Position numbers and translations under genes: made by a program. From NCBI GenBank assembly GCA_002722155.1, contig PBKS01000007.1:1-51186 (forward strand): a stretch of DNA of 51,186 bases, in the 5' to 3' direction. Shown piece after piece: positions 3,557 through 34,031 of this stretch. The DNA comes from Chloroflexota bacterium. Lineage in GTDB: Bacteria > Chloroflexota > Dehalococcoidia > Lucifugimonadales > UBA826. Positions within the stretch are counted from its first letter, which is position 1; each line of letters starts with the position of its first letter. Below the pieces are notes generated by a model. It saw nothing but the letters and a program-made list of their open reading frames with translations, did not search any database and was not told the DNA's origin.

Positions 3557-5152
3557 ATGAATGTCCAATACAATTTGGGTGTAGATAAATCAGAAAATCC
3601 TATAATGGGTTTTACAGACTCAATCTATCACTCCTCAGATAACATACATCGAGTGGCTATTATCTCTGGGCTTTCAGGTCTTGATAATAGTGATTCATTT
3701 TTTTCTACCGCTACGAAAGGTATTGAATCAATATCAAATCAAATAGGTTTTATCGCTTCCAATCTTGGTGCAAATACAACTGGAAGTTCCGAGTACCAAT
3801 TCCCGCCTCCAACCAAAACATTTCATGAACTGGAGAATCCAGAAGAGATGTACATTTGGCGTTGGCTGACAATGGATTCCCCCGATGTAGTCATAGAATT
3901 AGTAGAATCGAGTAGATCGGAAACTTTGATTGAAACCATCGGTTTCGGGGAGAAAAACAAATATGGCTTAGAATACACGGCCTTTCGAGGAGACAGTTCT
4001 CTTTTGAGTGCCCTTGCATCTGGATCTGGCCCCACACCCGGACCTATACCAGGAATAAGAATTACATCTGAGTCCAAAAATGTTAATCAAGCATTAGCAG
4101 GAATAATTACGGAGATTTCAAAAACTCCCCCTTCAAGATCAGAAGCCTCAGAAGAACTACAAAGAAGAGTATCCAGGACCCCAAAAGAAGTAAGTAACAG
4201 ACTAGCGCAAGTTTACGGATTCAAACTGGACCAACCAATTAACTATGTCCAAGGAGTGGCCATAAGCGGAAGGCTTAGATTAAAAGCGATTGACCCGGAT
4301 TATTCTGATCCAAATAAAGATATAGTTGCCTTAGTTGAATTCCTTACAGAAGACCTAGCATTTAATGAAAATAGTAAAGAAGGCCCGAACCTCGCTGCTA
4401 TGTGCTGGGCTGAAGATTTATATGAGGCAACCTCCGATTCCAGATGGAAAGATTTACTAGTAAAAACAGCAGAAACGTATGAGAAAGTACCGGCAGGTAC
4501 ATCTCCAAAACCTTGTCATCCTGAATTCGGTTGTGAGGATATGTTTTTCATTTCAGCCATGTTAGGAAGGGCATACAAAGTTACTGGGCAAACAATCTAT
4601 GCCGATGCCTATGTAAACTTTCTACTCGATGCCAATATTCAACAGGACAACGGGCTATTCTGGCACAACAGGACGACACCGTACTTTTGGGGAAGAGGAA
4701 ATGGATTCGCATCTTTAGCCTATGCTGAGGCACTTTCTTACCTACCTGAAAACCATCCAAGGAGAGACGAACTTTTAACTATTCATATCAAACATTTGGA
4801 AGGAATGATTGCTCATCAACTACCAAGTGGAACGTGGTCCCAACTAATCGATCTTCCAGGAACGTATCAAGAAATGTCCGTCACTTGCATGATTGGATAT
4901 TCAATAGCCAGAGGCATACGGAAAGGATGGCTCGATAATTCTTACATGCCTAGTCTTGAAAAGATTTGGTCAGCAGCAAAAAGAAGGATTGCAGACAATG
5001 GGGACTTAGTAGACGTGTGTTCTGGAACAGGTTTTCAACAAAAGAGAAGTGACTACATCTATAGAAAAGCTGAATATGGGTATGATGACAGAGGGGGATC
5101 TATGGCGATATGGTTCTCAACCGAAATGGCAATGCTACAACAAAACGACTAG
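3557..5152 (+). CDS. GH105/GH88-type unsaturated uronyl hydrolase with extra N-terminal domain
   Basis: The C-terminal ~330 residues resemble YteR-like unsaturated rhamnogalacturonyl hydrolases of the six-hairpin (alpha/alpha)6 fold: the family segments WGRGNGFASLAYAEAL and PGTYQEMSVTCMIGYSIARG are recognisable. Such enzymes release the 4,5-unsaturated uronic acid from lyase-generated oligosaccharides. The first ~200 residues are not part of that fold; they contain an IISGLSGLD strand and an EEMYIWRWLTMDSPDVVIEL segment that vaguely recalls M14-like carboxypeptidase folds, a weak guess. No signal peptide is seen, so action is probably cytoplasmic. Two ATGs compete; the one at 3557 has AGGATGG at proper spacing, whereas that at 3548 abuts AGG. 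It follows larB by a few bases and precedes an LLM oxidoreductase and a sugar kinase, which fits sugar-acid catabolism. Confidence 0.75.
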   Translation: MNVQYNLGVDKSENPIMGFTDSIYHSSDNIHRVAIISGLSGLDNSDSFFSTATKGIESISNQIGFIASNLGANTTGSSEYQFPPPTKTFHELENPEEMYIWRWLTMDSPDVVIELVESSRSETLIETIGFGEKNKYGLEYTAFRGDSSLLSALASGSGPTPGPIPGIRITSESKNVNQALAGIITEISKTPPSRSEASEELQRRVSRTPKEVSNRLAQVYGFKLDQPINYVQGVAISGRLRLKAIDPDYSDPNKDIVALVEFLTEDLAFNENSKEGPNLAAMCWAEDLYEATSDSRWKDLLVKTAETYEKVPAGTSPKPCHPEFGCEDMFFISAMLGRAYKVTGQTIYADAYVNFLLDANIQQDNGLFWHNRTTPYFWGRGNGFASLAYAEALSYLPENHPRRDELLTIHIKHLEGMIAHQLPSGTWSQLIDLPGTYQEMSVTCMIGYSIARGIRKGWLDNSYMPSLEKIWSAAKRRIADNGDLVDVCSGTGFQQKRSDYIYRKAEYGYDDRGGSMAIWFSTEMAMLQQND

Positions 5153-5189
5153 ATCAGTTATGGAAATCGAAATCAAATGAGGTATTTAA

Positions 5190-6254
5190 ATGGACATCGG
5201 TATTGGCCTTGACCCAACATTACGTCTAAACATAGAGCAGCAAAAGGAAATGTCTAGAGAAGCCGCCCGAATAGGGTATCAGAGTATCTGGACGCCTGAA
5301 GTACCTGGGCAAATGGATTCGTATCAAATTTGCCTTATGAGATGGGCTGCTTCCAACGAAATTGTCGAGGGAGGATTACAAACCGGTATAGCTGTCTCTC
5401 CAGTAATGTGGAGAACCCCCATGGCCTTTGCGATGACGGGAGGGGCAATCAGTCACATGACCAATGGTAAATTTATTATGGGAATTGGGGCAGGAGGAGC
5501 CTATAGGCCTGACGTCAGAAAATCAATAGGACTTCCTAAAATGTCTGCCCTGGCATTAATGCGGGACTATATAACAATCATAAAAGAACTAGTAAATGAG
5601 GGGAAAACAGACTATGAAGGTGAGGTCGGGGTTATGAAAGGTGGAAGAATGTCCATAAATCCATTACCCGCCACTCCCGTTTATCTAGGGGCATTAGGTC
5701 CCAAAATGCTTCAGTTGGCCGGGGAATTGGCAGATGGAGCCGCTTTAAACTGGTGCGCTCCAGAACAGGTGGCCTGGAGTCGAGAAAAAATAGTAGAAGG
5801 AGCGGAAAAAGTAGGTAGAGATCCTTCAGAAATAAAGATTTCAGAGTACATAAGAATCTGCGTAGATGAAAATGAAGATAAAGCACGGATCGCTTTAGCC
5901 AAAGCAACCATGCACTATGCCTTGGGGGCAACAGTGCCGACCGAAAAAGAGAGATCTTTCGGGTACAGGGCTCATTTTGAAAGAATGGGGTTTACCTCAG
6001 AGCTAGCGGACCTAGACGAAATGCGTAAGAAAGGTGCATCTCGTGATGAAGTAGCCGATGCGTTCCCGGTAGATTTGCTCAGAACTGTCGGATATTTCGG
6101 TAGCGCAAAAAATGCAGCGGCTGAATTTGCCCGAATATCGAAGGGGCTAGACCATACTATAGTCCGAGTCGTGTCTTCTCGCCCCGGAACGATAGAGGGA
6201 ACCCTAGACGTAATGAAGGCCTGTGCTCCGGATAAAGTAAGGCCCAAGTTATAA
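5190..6254 (+). CDS. LLM class flavin/F420-dependent oxidoreductase
   Basis: A 354-residue TIM-barrel protein of the bacterial luciferase-like superfamily. Recognisable are the N-terminal strand MDIGIGLDPT, the EAARIGYQSIWTPE helix, the LQTGIAVSP strand, the GKFIMGIGAGG cofactor-region motif, and the late VYLGALGPKMLQLAGELADGA segment shared with F420-dependent reductases such as methylene-H4MPT reductase and glucose-6-phosphate dehydrogenase types. Whether it uses F420 or FMN, and its substrate, cannot be read from the sequence. GAGG lies 7 bases before the ATG. It sits 4 bases before the sugar kinase gene, so the two are very likely co-transcribed. Confidence 0.85.
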   Translation: MDIGIGLDPTLRLNIEQQKEMSREAARIGYQSIWTPEVPGQMDSYQICLMRWAASNEIVEGGLQTGIAVSPVMWRTPMAFAMTGGAISHMTNGKFIMGIGAGGAYRPDVRKSIGLPKMSALALMRDYITIIKELVNEGKTDYEGEVGVMKGGRMSINPLPATPVYLGALGPKMLQLAGELADGAALNWCAPEQVAWSREKIVEGAEKVGRDPSEIKISEYIRICVDENEDKARIALAKATMHYALGATVPTEKERSFGYRAHFERMGFTSELADLDEMRKKGASRDEVADAFPVDLLRTVGYFGSAKNAAAEFARISKGLDHTIVRVVSSRPGTIEGTLDVMKACAPDKVRPKL

Positions 6255-9308: not shown

Positions 9309-10154
9309 TTAAACTATTAGAGGTGTATCAGAACGGTTAGCCCACTCTCCCATTGAGCCGTCGTAATTCCTTTTATTCTCATATCCCAGAAGGGCAAGGA
9401 CAAACGCTCCGTGCGCCGCACGGATTCCACCTTGTCAATAAGTTATTATCTCTTTCTCAGGTGTCACCCCAACCTCCTCTAGCATATTTCTAAGTTCAGA
9501 AGGTTCTTTTATGGTGTGGTATTTGTCATCGGTTATAAAGTTTGTCCACTCTAAATGAACAGAACCAGGAACCCGGCCTGATCTTGAATTACCTCTAGAA
9601 TTGGTCCCGTCCCATTCACCATCCGATCTTACATCTAGAAATACTACATTCTCATCACCAATTTTAGACACGGCTTGATCTAGAGAGCATATAAGGTCTT
9701 CATCTATTTTGGGGTTGAATGTCACTTCTTTCATATCTGGTGGGTCAATGGATACCGGCCTCCCTTCATCGAACCACTTCTTCCAACCACCATTCAACAC
9801 CTTGGCATTGGAGTGACCATAATAGTTCAATACCCACCAAAACCTACTGGACCAGAGACTTCCGCCACTGTCATAACTAACCACAGTAGTATCATCACCT
9901 ATCCCCATATCTTCAAAAAGTTCTTTCACGACCTCGGGTTCAGCCACCCAGGGATACGCTGTAGGGTCTTCAGGATAAAGTGGATGTTTTATGTAATGGT
10001 GCACTTTTATACCGACCGCACCTTTAATATGGGCCCTGGAATAGGATTCAAACATATCGCAGTCAATGATCCTAACGTTAGGATCATCTATATGATCATT
10101 CAACCATTCAGTATCGACGAGTATATGTGGATTCACAAAATTTTCAGTATTCAA
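9309..10154 (-). CDS. Tandem-domain rhodanese (thiosulfate sulfurtransferase), probable selenoprotein with Sec240
   Basis: Two rhodanese domains transfer sulfane sulfur from thiosulfate or mercaptopyruvate to an acceptor. The N-terminal inactive domain shows RIIDCDMFESYSRAHIKGA and VVSYDSGGSLWSSRFWW; the C-terminal domain shows VVFLDVRSDGEWDGT and RVPGSVHLEW. At the catalytic-loop position, where family members have Cys in Y-C-x-G-G, codon 240 is TGA (9437-9435). The frame continues after it with QGGIRAAHGAFVLALLGYEN and NYDGSMGEWANRSDTPL, the expected family C-terminus, to a TAA at 9309. Read through, the protein has the usual 281 residues. A SECIS-like hairpin follows the TGA. The start is TTG 10154 with GGAGG 6 bases upstream. 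Selenocysteine is the favoured reading; a nonsense mutation or a base error remains possible. Confidence 0.8.
9395..9437 (-). promoter_or_regulatory. Putative bacterial SECIS element after in-frame TGA
   Basis: On the minus strand, the TGA (9437-9435) is followed by a two-part stem-loop. An outer stem CAAGG/CCTTG pairs 9434-9430 with 9399-9395. After an internal loop, an inner 7-bp perfect stem TCCGTGC/GCACGGA (9424-9418 with 9414-9408) carries the apical triloop GGC. The apical loop begins 17 bases after the TGA and starts with G, which fits the loose bacterial SECIS rules as I know them (loop about 16-37 bases downstream, a G among its first two bases). The fold is by eye; the element also codes for protein. 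Confidence 0.6.
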
Positions 10155-10235
10155 TGCGTACCTCCATTTGCTTATAACCGCAACCCAGGAGCTAGGTTCC
10201 GTGATTGCATAAGATAAACGACTAACTAGCAGGGG

Positions 10236-10405
10236 TCAAAAAAGGCATAACTTCCTCTCTCAATACTTTCTAATGAAACATATGGTAGGAAACCTGATTA
10301 AAAATCACCATGCCGGCATCTGCATCAATGAATTTTTAAAGCTTGCGAATAATTTCTTCGCTAGTCCCCCATATGGAGACCTCTGACCTAAGTTCAGAGC
10401 CTTAA
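10236..10405 (-). pseudogene. Decayed C-terminal fragment of an LLM-class oxidoreductase
   Basis: Reading the minus strand from about 10405 down to 10236, one frame gives SIWGTSEEIIRKL, stop, KFIDADAGMVIFN, then a short degraded stretch and a second stop, then KVLREEVMPF and a final stop. This is the recognisable C-terminal block of luciferase-like oxidoreductases (WGTPEE-IRK, DAG-DMVIFN, ER-EVMP), but it has two internal stops and no upstream part of the gene. It occupies the otherwise empty gap between the rhodanese and the esterase-like gene. The 5' boundary is approximate. Confidence 0.6.
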
Positions 10406-10441
10406 GATCATTGAAACCCACTAGCACCACCTATGAATTCA

Positions 10442-30862: not shown

Positions 30863-30883
30863 TTAAAAACTGAAAACAAAAAT

Positions 30884-31035
30884 GGTACAAGTGCCCTTCA
30901 GGGTTTAAAAGAGGAAGTCGGTCAAAATCCGACACTGTCCCGCAACGGTAGGCTTAAAAAGCAAGTCCGGTCAACCACTAAGTGCCACTATCTAGGTCTT
31001 CGCGGAAAGGCCGGGTTGAGCTAATGACTTTCCCC
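30884..31035 (+). ncRNA. Cobalamin (B12) riboswitch
   Basis: The core blocks of an adenosyl/hydroxocobalamin aptamer occur in order: GAGGAAGTCGGTCAAAATCC, the conserved CTGTCCCGCAACGGTA (around 30935-30951), and a B12-box-like AAGTCCGGTCAACCACTAAG followed by GTGCCAC. Arms pair as expected, for example GTCGG with CCGAC. It lies directly upstream of btuF-C-D and ends in an intrinsic terminator, so cobalamin binding should switch off the uptake operon. The 5' and 3' limits are approximate. Confidence 0.9.
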
Positions 31036-31039
31036 GCCG

Positions 31040-31067
31040 GCCCACAGAGATGTGGGCTTTTTATTTT
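31040..31067 (+). terminator. Riboswitch-linked intrinsic terminator
   Basis: GCCCACA (31040-31046), a GAGA tetraloop, TGTGGGC (31051-31057), then TTTTTATTTT. This is the expression platform of the cobalamin riboswitch, located between the aptamer and the btuF start. An ATG at 31050 falls inside the loop and is not a start codon. Confidence 0.88.
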
Positions 31068-31109
31068 CCTGCTATAGATCTTAGAAAATTTTATAGCGAG
31101 GAAAATAAC

Positions 31110-32192
31110 TTGATTAGACCCGTTTTTCTATTATTGACTTTATCCCTGACATTAATTCTAAGTACAGTTTCTTGTACCAACGGAGCTGTTCCTGAAAGCC
31201 CTAAGCTTGCCTCCCCTGCCCCAACGCCAATACCTATTCCTACTAAATTCTACTCTCAAACAATGCCGGCAACTCCTTTGCCCGCCCCAACACCCTTGGT
31301 AAATACGGAAGAAATAACTTCTCCTATAAACGAAAATGTAGGAAAAGTTGTCCATGACACCCTACCCGTAGAGAAATCCTCTGAAAAGATCTTTGTGAAA
31401 TTTCCTCTAACAATCCTAGACAGGGAAGAAAAGCCATTAACATTCACAGAACCGCCTGAACGAATAGTTGTCTATGATGCCGCAGCAGTAGAAACCATTT
31501 TTGCAATTGGTCAAGGACACAGAATTATCGGTACCCACAGCTGGGTATCATACCCTGAAGAATCAGAAAAAATTGAGAAGGTAGGAGACGCCTTCAATAT
31601 GGATATTGAACGTATTGTGGCCTTGGATCCTGATTTAGTATTTTTATTCTATCCAACCTTTAAACAAGAGTTAGAAAAAGCCGGATTAAAAGTTCTCTTG
31701 CTGGAATCAGTTGACGATGACTTAAGAAAAATGGCAAATACTTTCAGAATTTGGGGACAAATCACAAATGCTCCCAACGAAGCGGAACTATTGGCAAAAG
31801 ATTTCGAAAATAGGGTCATGCAAATTGAATCTATTTTAGCTCCTTACGATTCTGGTCCATCAGTTTTCCAAGACGTAGGCGATCTTTGGACCCCGGGTGA
31901 TAACACCCTCATGGGAAGTGTATTCAACTTGCTGAAACTCCAGAATATAAGCCATGACGTGGCGAACTACGGTCAACTAAGTCCTGAAGTGATAATTGAT
32001 AGAAATCCTCAAATCCTTATCAGTTCGAATCCAGATTCAATTTACCAAAACTCTGCCTTCCAAGAGTTATTGCCAGTCAAAAACAATTCTATTTTCAAAT
32101 CAAACGACGATTACCTTAGTATATCTGGACCAAGGTTTATATTAGGGGTAGAAGAACTCGCACTTGAATTTTACCCAGGGCTTTTCAAATAA
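31110..32192 (+). CDS. btuF: Cobalamin ABC transporter substrate-binding lipoprotein
   Basis: A 360-residue class III periplasmic-type binding protein. From TTG 31110 (GAGG 8 bases upstream) it begins with a hydrophobic signal and a cysteine after STVS, fitting a lipoprotein anchored outside the membrane; a ~60-residue Pro/Thr-rich linker follows. The Peripla_BP_2 fold is shown by PPERIVVYDAAAVETIFAIGQG, IVALDPDLVFLF and PEVIIDRNPQILISSN. The upstream B12 riboswitch and the downstream permease and ATPase identify cobalamin (or another corrinoid) as the likely ligand; without that context it could be read as a heme or siderophore binder. Confidence 0.85.
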   Translation: MIRPVFLLLTLSLTLILSTVSCTNGAVPESPKLASPAPTPIPIPTKFYSQTMPATPLPAPTPLVNTEEITSPINENVGKVVHDTLPVEKSSEKIFVKFPLTILDREEKPLTFTEPPERIVVYDAAAVETIFAIGQGHRIIGTHSWVSYPEESEKIEKVGDAFNMDIERIVALDPDLVFLFYPTFKQELEKAGLKVLLLESVDDDLRKMANTFRIWGQITNAPNEAELLAKDFENRVMQIESILAPYDSGPSVFQDVGDLWTPGDNTLMGSVFNLLKLQNISHDVANYGQLSPEVIIDRNPQILISSNPDSIYQNSAFQELLPVKNNSIFKSNDDYLSISGPRFILGVEELALEFYPGLFK

Positions 32193-32197
32193 GACCC

Positions 32198-33268
32198 ATG
32201 TCAGATAACTCTACCAGAGAATTGGTTTCCATCTATAAATATCCTTGGACTCATATAATTACAGGCATATTTATAGCTTTTATTTGTACCGTTGTCGCAG
32301 TCGCCATTGGCTCCGTATATATACCTGTCACATCAGTAATTACTATCATCTTTTCAAAATTGGATGTTTTTCAACAACAAGAACAAATAAGCTCATCGTG
32401 GCACACAATAATCTGGAACATTCGTTTCCCAAGGGTTGTTCTCGCTCTCCTAGTAGGTGCCTCTCTCGGCATTTCTGGAGCAACGTATCAAGGTCTCTTT
32501 AAAAATCCTCTGGCGGATCCATATCTCATAGGAGTAGCATCAGGAGCTTCACTTGGAGCTACGATAGTCTTCCTCACTGGAGTACCATTTACATACGGAT
32601 ATTTTAGCTTTCTGCCTTTGGCTTCATTTTGCGGGGGACTGGCTGCAGTTTGTTTGGCTTACCTAATTTCCATCAAGTCGGGCGACACTCAATTATCTAC
32701 CCTCCTATTAGCAGGCATAGCAATAGGAGCTTTTGCCACCGCAATAACAGGAATCCTCATGCTGAGCAGTGATCCTGATTTGAGACCCCTATTGAGCTGG
32801 CTTATGGGAGGATTTATAAGAGCCCAATGGTCTCATTCTATATTGATAATTCCCTATATGACCATAGGAATAATATTTATTTTAGGTTACAGCCGTGTCC
32901 TAAACACAATGCAACTTGAAGAATATTACTCTGAATCGTTGGGAGTGGACGTGGAGAAAGCTAAGAGAGTGCTAATAATATCCGCTACCCTGATGACCGC
33001 AGTTGCTGTCTCATTTAGCGGCCTAATTGGATTTGTAGGATTGGTAGCTCCTCATGTAGTAAGACTGCTATGGGGCACAGATTATAGAACTATTTTACCG
33101 CTTTCAGGAATAGCCGGTGCCACATTCTTAGTTATTGCCGACCTAGCAGCTAGGACAGTGGTAAGTCCAGTTGAATTACCAGTTGGAATAATAACAGCGT
33201 TAGTAGGATCTCCTTTTTTCGTTTACCTGTTACTCAAGGCTAAAAGAAGGGCGGGAAATGGCTATTAA
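32198..33268 (+). CDS. btuC: Cobalamin ABC transporter permease (FecCD family)
   Basis: A 356-residue permease of the BtuC/FecCD family with about ten membrane helices. Family motifs are IRFPRVVLALLVGASLGISGATYQGLFKNPLADPYLIGVASGASLGA near the N-terminus, LSWLMGGFIRAQW, the cytoplasmic coupling-helix region SLGVDVEKAKR, and SFSGLIGFVGLVAPHVVRLLWGTDYR. It starts 5 bases after btuF and ends overlapping btuD by 11 bases, so the three are translated as one operon under the riboswitch. Confidence 0.9.
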   Translation: MSDNSTRELVSIYKYPWTHIITGIFIAFICTVVAVAIGSVYIPVTSVITIIFSKLDVFQQQEQISSSWHTIIWNIRFPRVVLALLVGASLGISGATYQGLFKNPLADPYLIGVASGASLGATIVFLTGVPFTYGYFSFLPLASFCGGLAAVCLAYLISIKSGDTQLSTLLLAGIAIGAFATAITGILMLSSDPDLRPLLSWLMGGFIRAQWSHSILIIPYMTIGIIFILGYSRVLNTMQLEEYYSESLGVDVEKAKRVLIISATLMTAVAVSFSGLIGFVGLVAPHVVRLLWGTDYRTILPLSGIAGATFLVIADLAARTVVSPVELPVGIITALVGSPFFVYLLLKAKRRAGNGY

Positions 33269-34031
33269 CATAAAAGACGTTTCATTCAATTATGGATCCC
33301 CGCAGATAATAAAAGGGATTAATTTGTATCTAAAGCCAGGGCAATTAGTTTCTTTAGTAGGCCCCAACGGAGCTGGAAAAACCACCCTTCTGAAGCTAAT
33401 TTGCGGGACTTTAAAACCTACCACGGGTGAAATATATATACAGGATCGACCAGGGGAGACTTTTACAAAAAAGGAAAGAGCATCCAAAGTATCATTAGTT
33501 CCTCAAAACCCGAAACTACCGGAAGAAATGAAGGTTTCAGATTTTGTAATGCTGGGGCGCAATCCTCATCTGGGACTACTTGAATGGGAATCGGCAAAAG
33601 ATTTTCAAGTTGCCGGCGAAGCAATTCAGCTAACAGAGATAGGTCACCTATTAGAAAGAAAATTAGGTGAAATTTCTGGTGGGGAAAGACAAAGAGTCAT
33701 GCTAGCTCTGGCGATGACACAGGGCTCACCAATAATGCTCCTAGATGAACCAACTGCTAGCTTGGATATATCGCATCAAATGAAAGTAATGAAGTTGATA
33801 AAAAAAATACATGGTCAAAGGCGATTAAATGCAGTAACCGTTTTGGCTATTCATGATTTGAATATCGCTGCTCAATTTAGCGATCGCGTTATCCTATTTT
33901 CAGAAGGTAATGTAGCAATAGATGGAACCCCGAAACAAGTGTTGACAAAAGACAACATTAAAGAAATATACGGTTCACAGGTAACAGTAATGAGTCATCC
34001 TGAACATGGGTCCCCTCTAATAATTTCCTAG
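33258..34031 (+). CDS. btuD: Cobalamin ABC transporter ATP-binding protein
   Basis: A 257-residue ATPase of the FecE/BtuD type that powers import through BtuC. Walker A GPNGAGKTT, Q-loop VPQNPKLP, signature SGGERQR, Walker B IMLLDEPTASLD and switch His in AIHDLN are all intact. It overlaps the btuC end by 11 bases. Gene end faces a minus-strand carbonic anhydrase gene with an 8-base gap. Confidence 0.9.
   Translation: MAINIKDVSFNYGSPQIIKGINLYLKPGQLVSLVGPNGAGKTTLLKLICGTLKPTTGEIYIQDRPGETFTKKERASKVSLVPQNPKLPEEMKVSDFVMLGRNPHLGLLEWESAKDFQVAGEAIQLTEIGHLLERKLGEISGGERQRVMLALAMTQGSPIMLLDEPTASLDISHQMKVMKLIKKIHGQRRLNAVTVLAIHDLNIAAQFSDRVILFSEGNVAIDGTPKQVLTKDNIKEIYGSQVTVMSHPEHGSPLIIS

Follow-up and report, generated by a model that had tools for sequence, protein, structure and literature searches.

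Results

The window, the whole 51,186-nucleotide stretch of Chloroflexota DNA that we analyzed, carries a gene for a tandem rhodanese on the minus strand (9309..10154). Translation of that strand yields a single frame of 281 codons, which opens with a TTG start at 10154, has GGAGG just 5' of that start, and closes with a TAA stop at 9309-9311. The sole interruption of this frame is a TGA at codon 240 (9435..9437, minus strand), which lies at the position of the catalytic cysteine by translation and alignment and is predicted to be read as selenocysteine (Sec). Standard ORF calling ends the gene at this codon and returns a product of 239 amino acids (9435-10154). A preliminary description of the locus had foreseen this truncation and had also claimed that the codons beyond it retain the motifs of the family up to a normal length of 281 residues. 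Both claims held. The motifs YUQGGIRAAH, GAFVLALLGYEN, and NYDGSMGEWANRSDTP were all found, and the frame ends in TAA at length 281.

The encoded protein has the architecture of a two-domain rhodanese. A profile search matched PF00581 in two stretches (126.2 bits), one in an N-terminal domain without a catalytic cysteine (Asp95 region) and one in a C-terminal domain that carries residue 240. The catalytic cysteine of the solved rhodaneses 1uar and 1e0c aligns with the TGA column, in keeping with the preliminary identification of a tandem rhodanese with TGA at the catalytic cysteine. Using 28 family sequences, we obtained an AF2 model with a mean pLDDT of 95.5, in which residue 240 sits between a strand (235-239) and a helix (244-255), in the active loop typical of rhodaneses. 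The top PDB matches of this model were also 1uar and 1e0c (query TM, 0.88 and 0.89), and profile and fold match together place the active-site residue in the second domain.

Directly downstream of the rhodanese gene lies a gene resembling arylsulfotransferase (ASST-like; PF05935; 8114..9247, minus strand), followed by a ThuA-like gene (PF06283; 7387..8064, minus strand), which is the cluster context that had been described for this locus. An ASST-like gene came directly after the rhodanese gene in 16 of 22 loci, and the pair persisted at loci where other neighbors differed (L058 and L060). In nearer relatives, the ThuA, PfkB, luciferase-like, GH88, and AIRC genes occur in the same order. Alongside the rhodanese copies of Binatia and Tectomicrobia, the ASST-like, ThuA, and other listed neighbors were not found. 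On the other side of the gene, between an esterase and the rhodanese, we observed what appears to be a decayed C-terminal remnant of a luciferase-like monooxygenase (10155-10441, minus strand; VSIWGTSEEIIRKL...GMVIFNQVSYHMFH). Sister genomes retain an undamaged monooxygenase gene (L051, about 4964-5900).

To characterize codon 240 among relatives, we combined a genome search with named loci and extra stretches and removed redundancy. This column holds TGA in 44 homologs and TGC or TGT in 12 others, a recurrence of TGA that, across this alignment, is far beyond chance. The TGA forms belong to Dehalococcoidia/SAR202, Binatia, and Tectomicrobia, with records of three phyla. A rhodanese copy with one internal TGA was present in 37 of the 60 genomes searched (the source genome and its relatives), including 7 of 7 from the same genus. 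Most of these copies, among them those of Candidatus Binatia and Tectomicrobia, are 40 to 86% identical to the window protein, with one at 39%. The sister rhodaneses (83 to 86% identical) come from records named SAR202 cluster bacterium, Dehalococcoidia, and Chloroflexi. Because these loci are found in members of the same genus, we assign the window to a SAR202-type Chloroflexota genome. Against four same-genus sisters, the frame after the TGA gave a dN of 0.03 to 0.05 and a dS of 0.76 to 1.1, and by this measure it is under strong purifying selection. The preliminary description had named a decayed downstream frame in sisters, or TGC or TGT in independent reads, as signs against Sec, and had proposed a comparison of this codon in close homologs. 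We found no such decay, and the same TGA recurs in close homologs and in many independently assembled genomes. The gene thus combines an in-frame UGA at the cysteine position of its homologs with a conserved downstream frame, as is required of a bacterial selenoprotein.

Sec and Cys have been exchanged repeatedly at position 240, judging from a tree of the two forms, which needs six changes, at least four of them forced by well-supported branches. Because of tree sampling and long branches, we claim no direction for these switches. We also observed two genomes with two versions of the rhodanese each. One (G022; L078 and L083) has a Sec version and a Cys version. The other (G058; L043 and L080) has two Sec versions, and the SECIS stem is still compensated in L080, which is very divergent.

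Immediately behind the TGA lies a predicted bacterial SECIS hairpin (UCCGUGC-GGC-GCACGGA; 9408..9424, minus strand) with a 7-bp stem, a 3-nt loop, and 17 nt from UGA to loop. We ranked synonymous variation over 85 conserved sites within residues 100-279 of the Sec set, and the lowest values fell at codons 246, 247, 245, 248, and 244, which encode IRAAH. GCG encodes Ala246 and Ala247 in all Sec forms with alanine at these sites, and 43 of 44 use CGT for Arg245. Codons for residues 244-248 are varied among the Cys forms, so the constraint is limited to forms with TGA. Covariation pointed the same way. Among 38 distinct sequences, 95.9% of hairpin cells were paired, and four of the seven pairs had changed on both sides in a compensatory manner. 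The covariation score was reached by none of 500 shuffles, and shifting the partner strand abolished the signal. The outermost pair was open in 9 of the 38 sequences, and the loop throughout the family was G(G/U)C, i.e., GGC or GUC.

The hairpin also lies within the limits of a published bacterial SECIS (bSECIS) model (PMC13188914): its loop starts with G, G/U, its stem has 7 bp, its distance from the UGA is 17 nt, and its energy (-10.7 kcal/mol, computed over the first 36 nt) is below -7.5 kcal/mol. As a single sequence, the region folded only modestly better than shuffles (z of -1.0 to -1.9), which is not decisive, so the SECIS assignment rests on comparison. When we scanned 400 genomes from the phylum for the exact pattern, the signature occurred in 13, at one place each, and a reversed control gave zero.

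The assembly of the source genome, 86% complete and in 25 contigs, yielded SelA (539.8 bits), SelB (331.9 bits), SelD (389.9 bits), and a tRNA-Sec with anticodon TCA (64.2 bits), each over its curated cut-off. The genome of the Sec rhodanese therefore has selA, selB, selC, and selD, a complete Sec system and the set that the preliminary description had said to look for, with its absence named as a sign against Sec. The selD gene (L017, 1501-2424, minus strand; G000:C25) has one in-frame TGA itself. This TGA is codon 11 of the matched stretch, near the SelD start, within CAGUASKLSP, at what we take to be the catalytic Cys/Sec site of SelD. By this sequence, the selenophosphate synthetase of the genome is probably a selenoprotein too, and together with the Sec system it marks the lineage as a selenium user. 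Among the relatives, a full SelA was found in 33 of the 37 genomes with the TGA form, the remaining four being 55 to 87% complete. SelA was also found in 17 of the 23 genomes outside that set, so its co-occurrence is consistent with Sec and not discriminating.

Discussion

We conclude that, very probably (probability of roughly 0.93), the UGA at codon 240 is decoded as Sec and the gene belongs to the Sec-containing rhodaneses of COG2897. In the proposed mechanism, UGA 240 would be decoded by SelB with tRNA-Sec, steered by the hairpin in codons 244-249. The argument is one of comparative genomics, from which we infer the incorporation of Sec itself.

Other readings of the TGA fare poorly against this evidence. 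It could be an ordinary stop that leaves a truncated protein of 239 residues or a pseudogene, as the standard ORF call at codon 240 would have it. This is highly improbable given purifying selection on the frame beyond the TGA, the same TGA in 44 homologs with records of three phyla, and a hairpin with both synonymous constraint and covariation, and we rejected both the functional truncation and the pseudogene. An error of sequencing or assembly that turned TGC or TGT into TGA has nothing to recommend it beyond the background chance of a single-base error. We rejected it as well, with a negligible chance of being right, since the TGA is shared by many independently assembled genomes, both MAGs and SAR202 records without a MAG label. 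The in-frame TGA of selD could be taken to mean that TGA has been reassigned in this organism, for example, to Trp or Gly. However, 6 of the 38 genes in the window end in TGA, and TGA is therefore not a reassigned codon. Moreover, both in-frame TGAs (rhodanese and selD) occur at catalytic cysteine positions, and the matched tRNA with a UCA anticodon is tRNA-Sec. Reassignment is about as implausible as a sequencing error.

The Sec rhodanese of the window has known relatives. A 2005 study of the Sargasso Sea described a rhodanese-related sulfurtransferase of COG2897 that contains Sec and has a predicted SECIS (PMC1088965). It was recovered again from GOS in 2008 (PMC2398784) and tabulated in 2022 (example, MQG53192.1; PMC9312934) and in 2026 as "form 4" with a UxxG motif (MCY3690685.1; PMC13188914). 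The window gene has UxxG (as UQGG) and a bSECIS, features by which the published accounts define the family of Zhang et al. (2005). It also shares with that family Sec at the catalytic cysteine, a bacterial SECIS behind the UGA, and a marine source, a likeness drawn from published descriptions. On this sequence evidence, it is a new and well-supported member of the known Sec COG2897 (SseA) family and not a new kind. Here, the family is represented by one gene in a SAR202-type Chloroflexota genome, and beyond the earlier reports we document SECIS covariation, codon constraint, and a cross-phylum spread to Binatia and Tectomicrobia. Our literature search found no biochemistry or functional study of a Sec COG2897 rhodanese.

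Several other rhodaneses resemble the window protein less closely. The Thermus thermophilus rhodanese (1uar) and Azotobacter vinelandii RhdA (1e0c) share its tandem fold (TM of 0.88-0.89), and 1e0c shares its C/U-Q-x-x-x-R active loop, but both have Cys where it has Sec and are 28 to 33% identical. The best NCBIfam match was to the Escherichia coli-type 3-mercaptopyruvate sulfurtransferase SseA (NF008557/PRK11493; 1urh), which has the same two-domain architecture and is set apart by the active loop, UQGGIR in the window protein. Assignment as a 3-mercaptopyruvate sulfurtransferase failed, with 120.8 bits against the 250-bit equivalog cut-off of NF008557. Other rhodanese selenoproteins (COG0607 PspE forms, the CxU form NF041203, and TsoB NF045694) likewise combine Sec with a rhodanese domain but differ in Sec motif and architecture (PMC13188914), and NF041203 scored 38.7 on the window protein against a cut-off of 115 bits.

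What the enzyme does is less certain than how its UGA is read. We consider it likely, from the sequence and the model, that Sec240 carries out a sulfur-transfer reaction. The protein is a tandem rhodanese like SseA or thiosulfate sulfurtransferase, and Sec240 in the second domain would be its catalytic residue. Going by the fold and active site, the selenolate of the UQGGIR loop would most likely attack a sulfane-sulfur donor, either thiosulfate or a persulfide; the sulfur would be held on Sec240 as an Se-S intermediate and then handed to a thiol acceptor. Alternatively, Sec240 could serve mainly as a redox center of the peroxidase or reductase type or in selenium handling, with Cys32 or Cys156 as possible resolving thiols. 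Most uncharacterized selenoproteins are expected to be redox proteins (PMC9312934). Cys32 occurs in 37 of 43 Sec forms and 3 of 12 Cys forms, and Cys156 in 32 of 44 and 0 of 12, respectively, a contrast that may reflect only ancestry because the Cys set contains distant paralogs. These residues could be the resolving thiols of a redox cycle or no more than a sign of descent. Weighing against a redox role, the protein has kept its rhodanese fold, a loop of the CQxxxR type, and the strand-loop-helix arrangement of the active site, and we regard that role as rather unlikely.

If sulfur transfer is the function, the gene offers a clean and testable example of persulfide chemistry in which Sec has taken the place of Cys, with natural Cys versions for comparison. 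Such a replacement would be expected to alter redox or nucleophilic chemistry, as had been suggested for this locus; our literature search turned up no experiments on what selenium contributes to such chemistry. There is also a practical consequence for annotation. Standard annotation truncates the window protein at 239 residues and takes away its active site, so marine Chloroflexota sulfurtransferases of this type will be mistaken for inactive fragments.

The recurrent pairing with the ASST-like gene is a lead to a functional link. At its most ambitious, the pair would perform an undescribed selenium-dependent transfer of sulfur groups in the marine organosulfur metabolism of SAR202-type bacteria, with Sec required rather than tolerated, a proposal that we consider speculative and improbable.

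Elsewhere in the window, we identified a predicted cobalamin riboswitch (30872-31069, plus strand; 40.5 bits). It overlaps the start of an apparent B12-type ABC uptake operon (31050-34031) that encodes a binding protein, a permease, and an ATPase.
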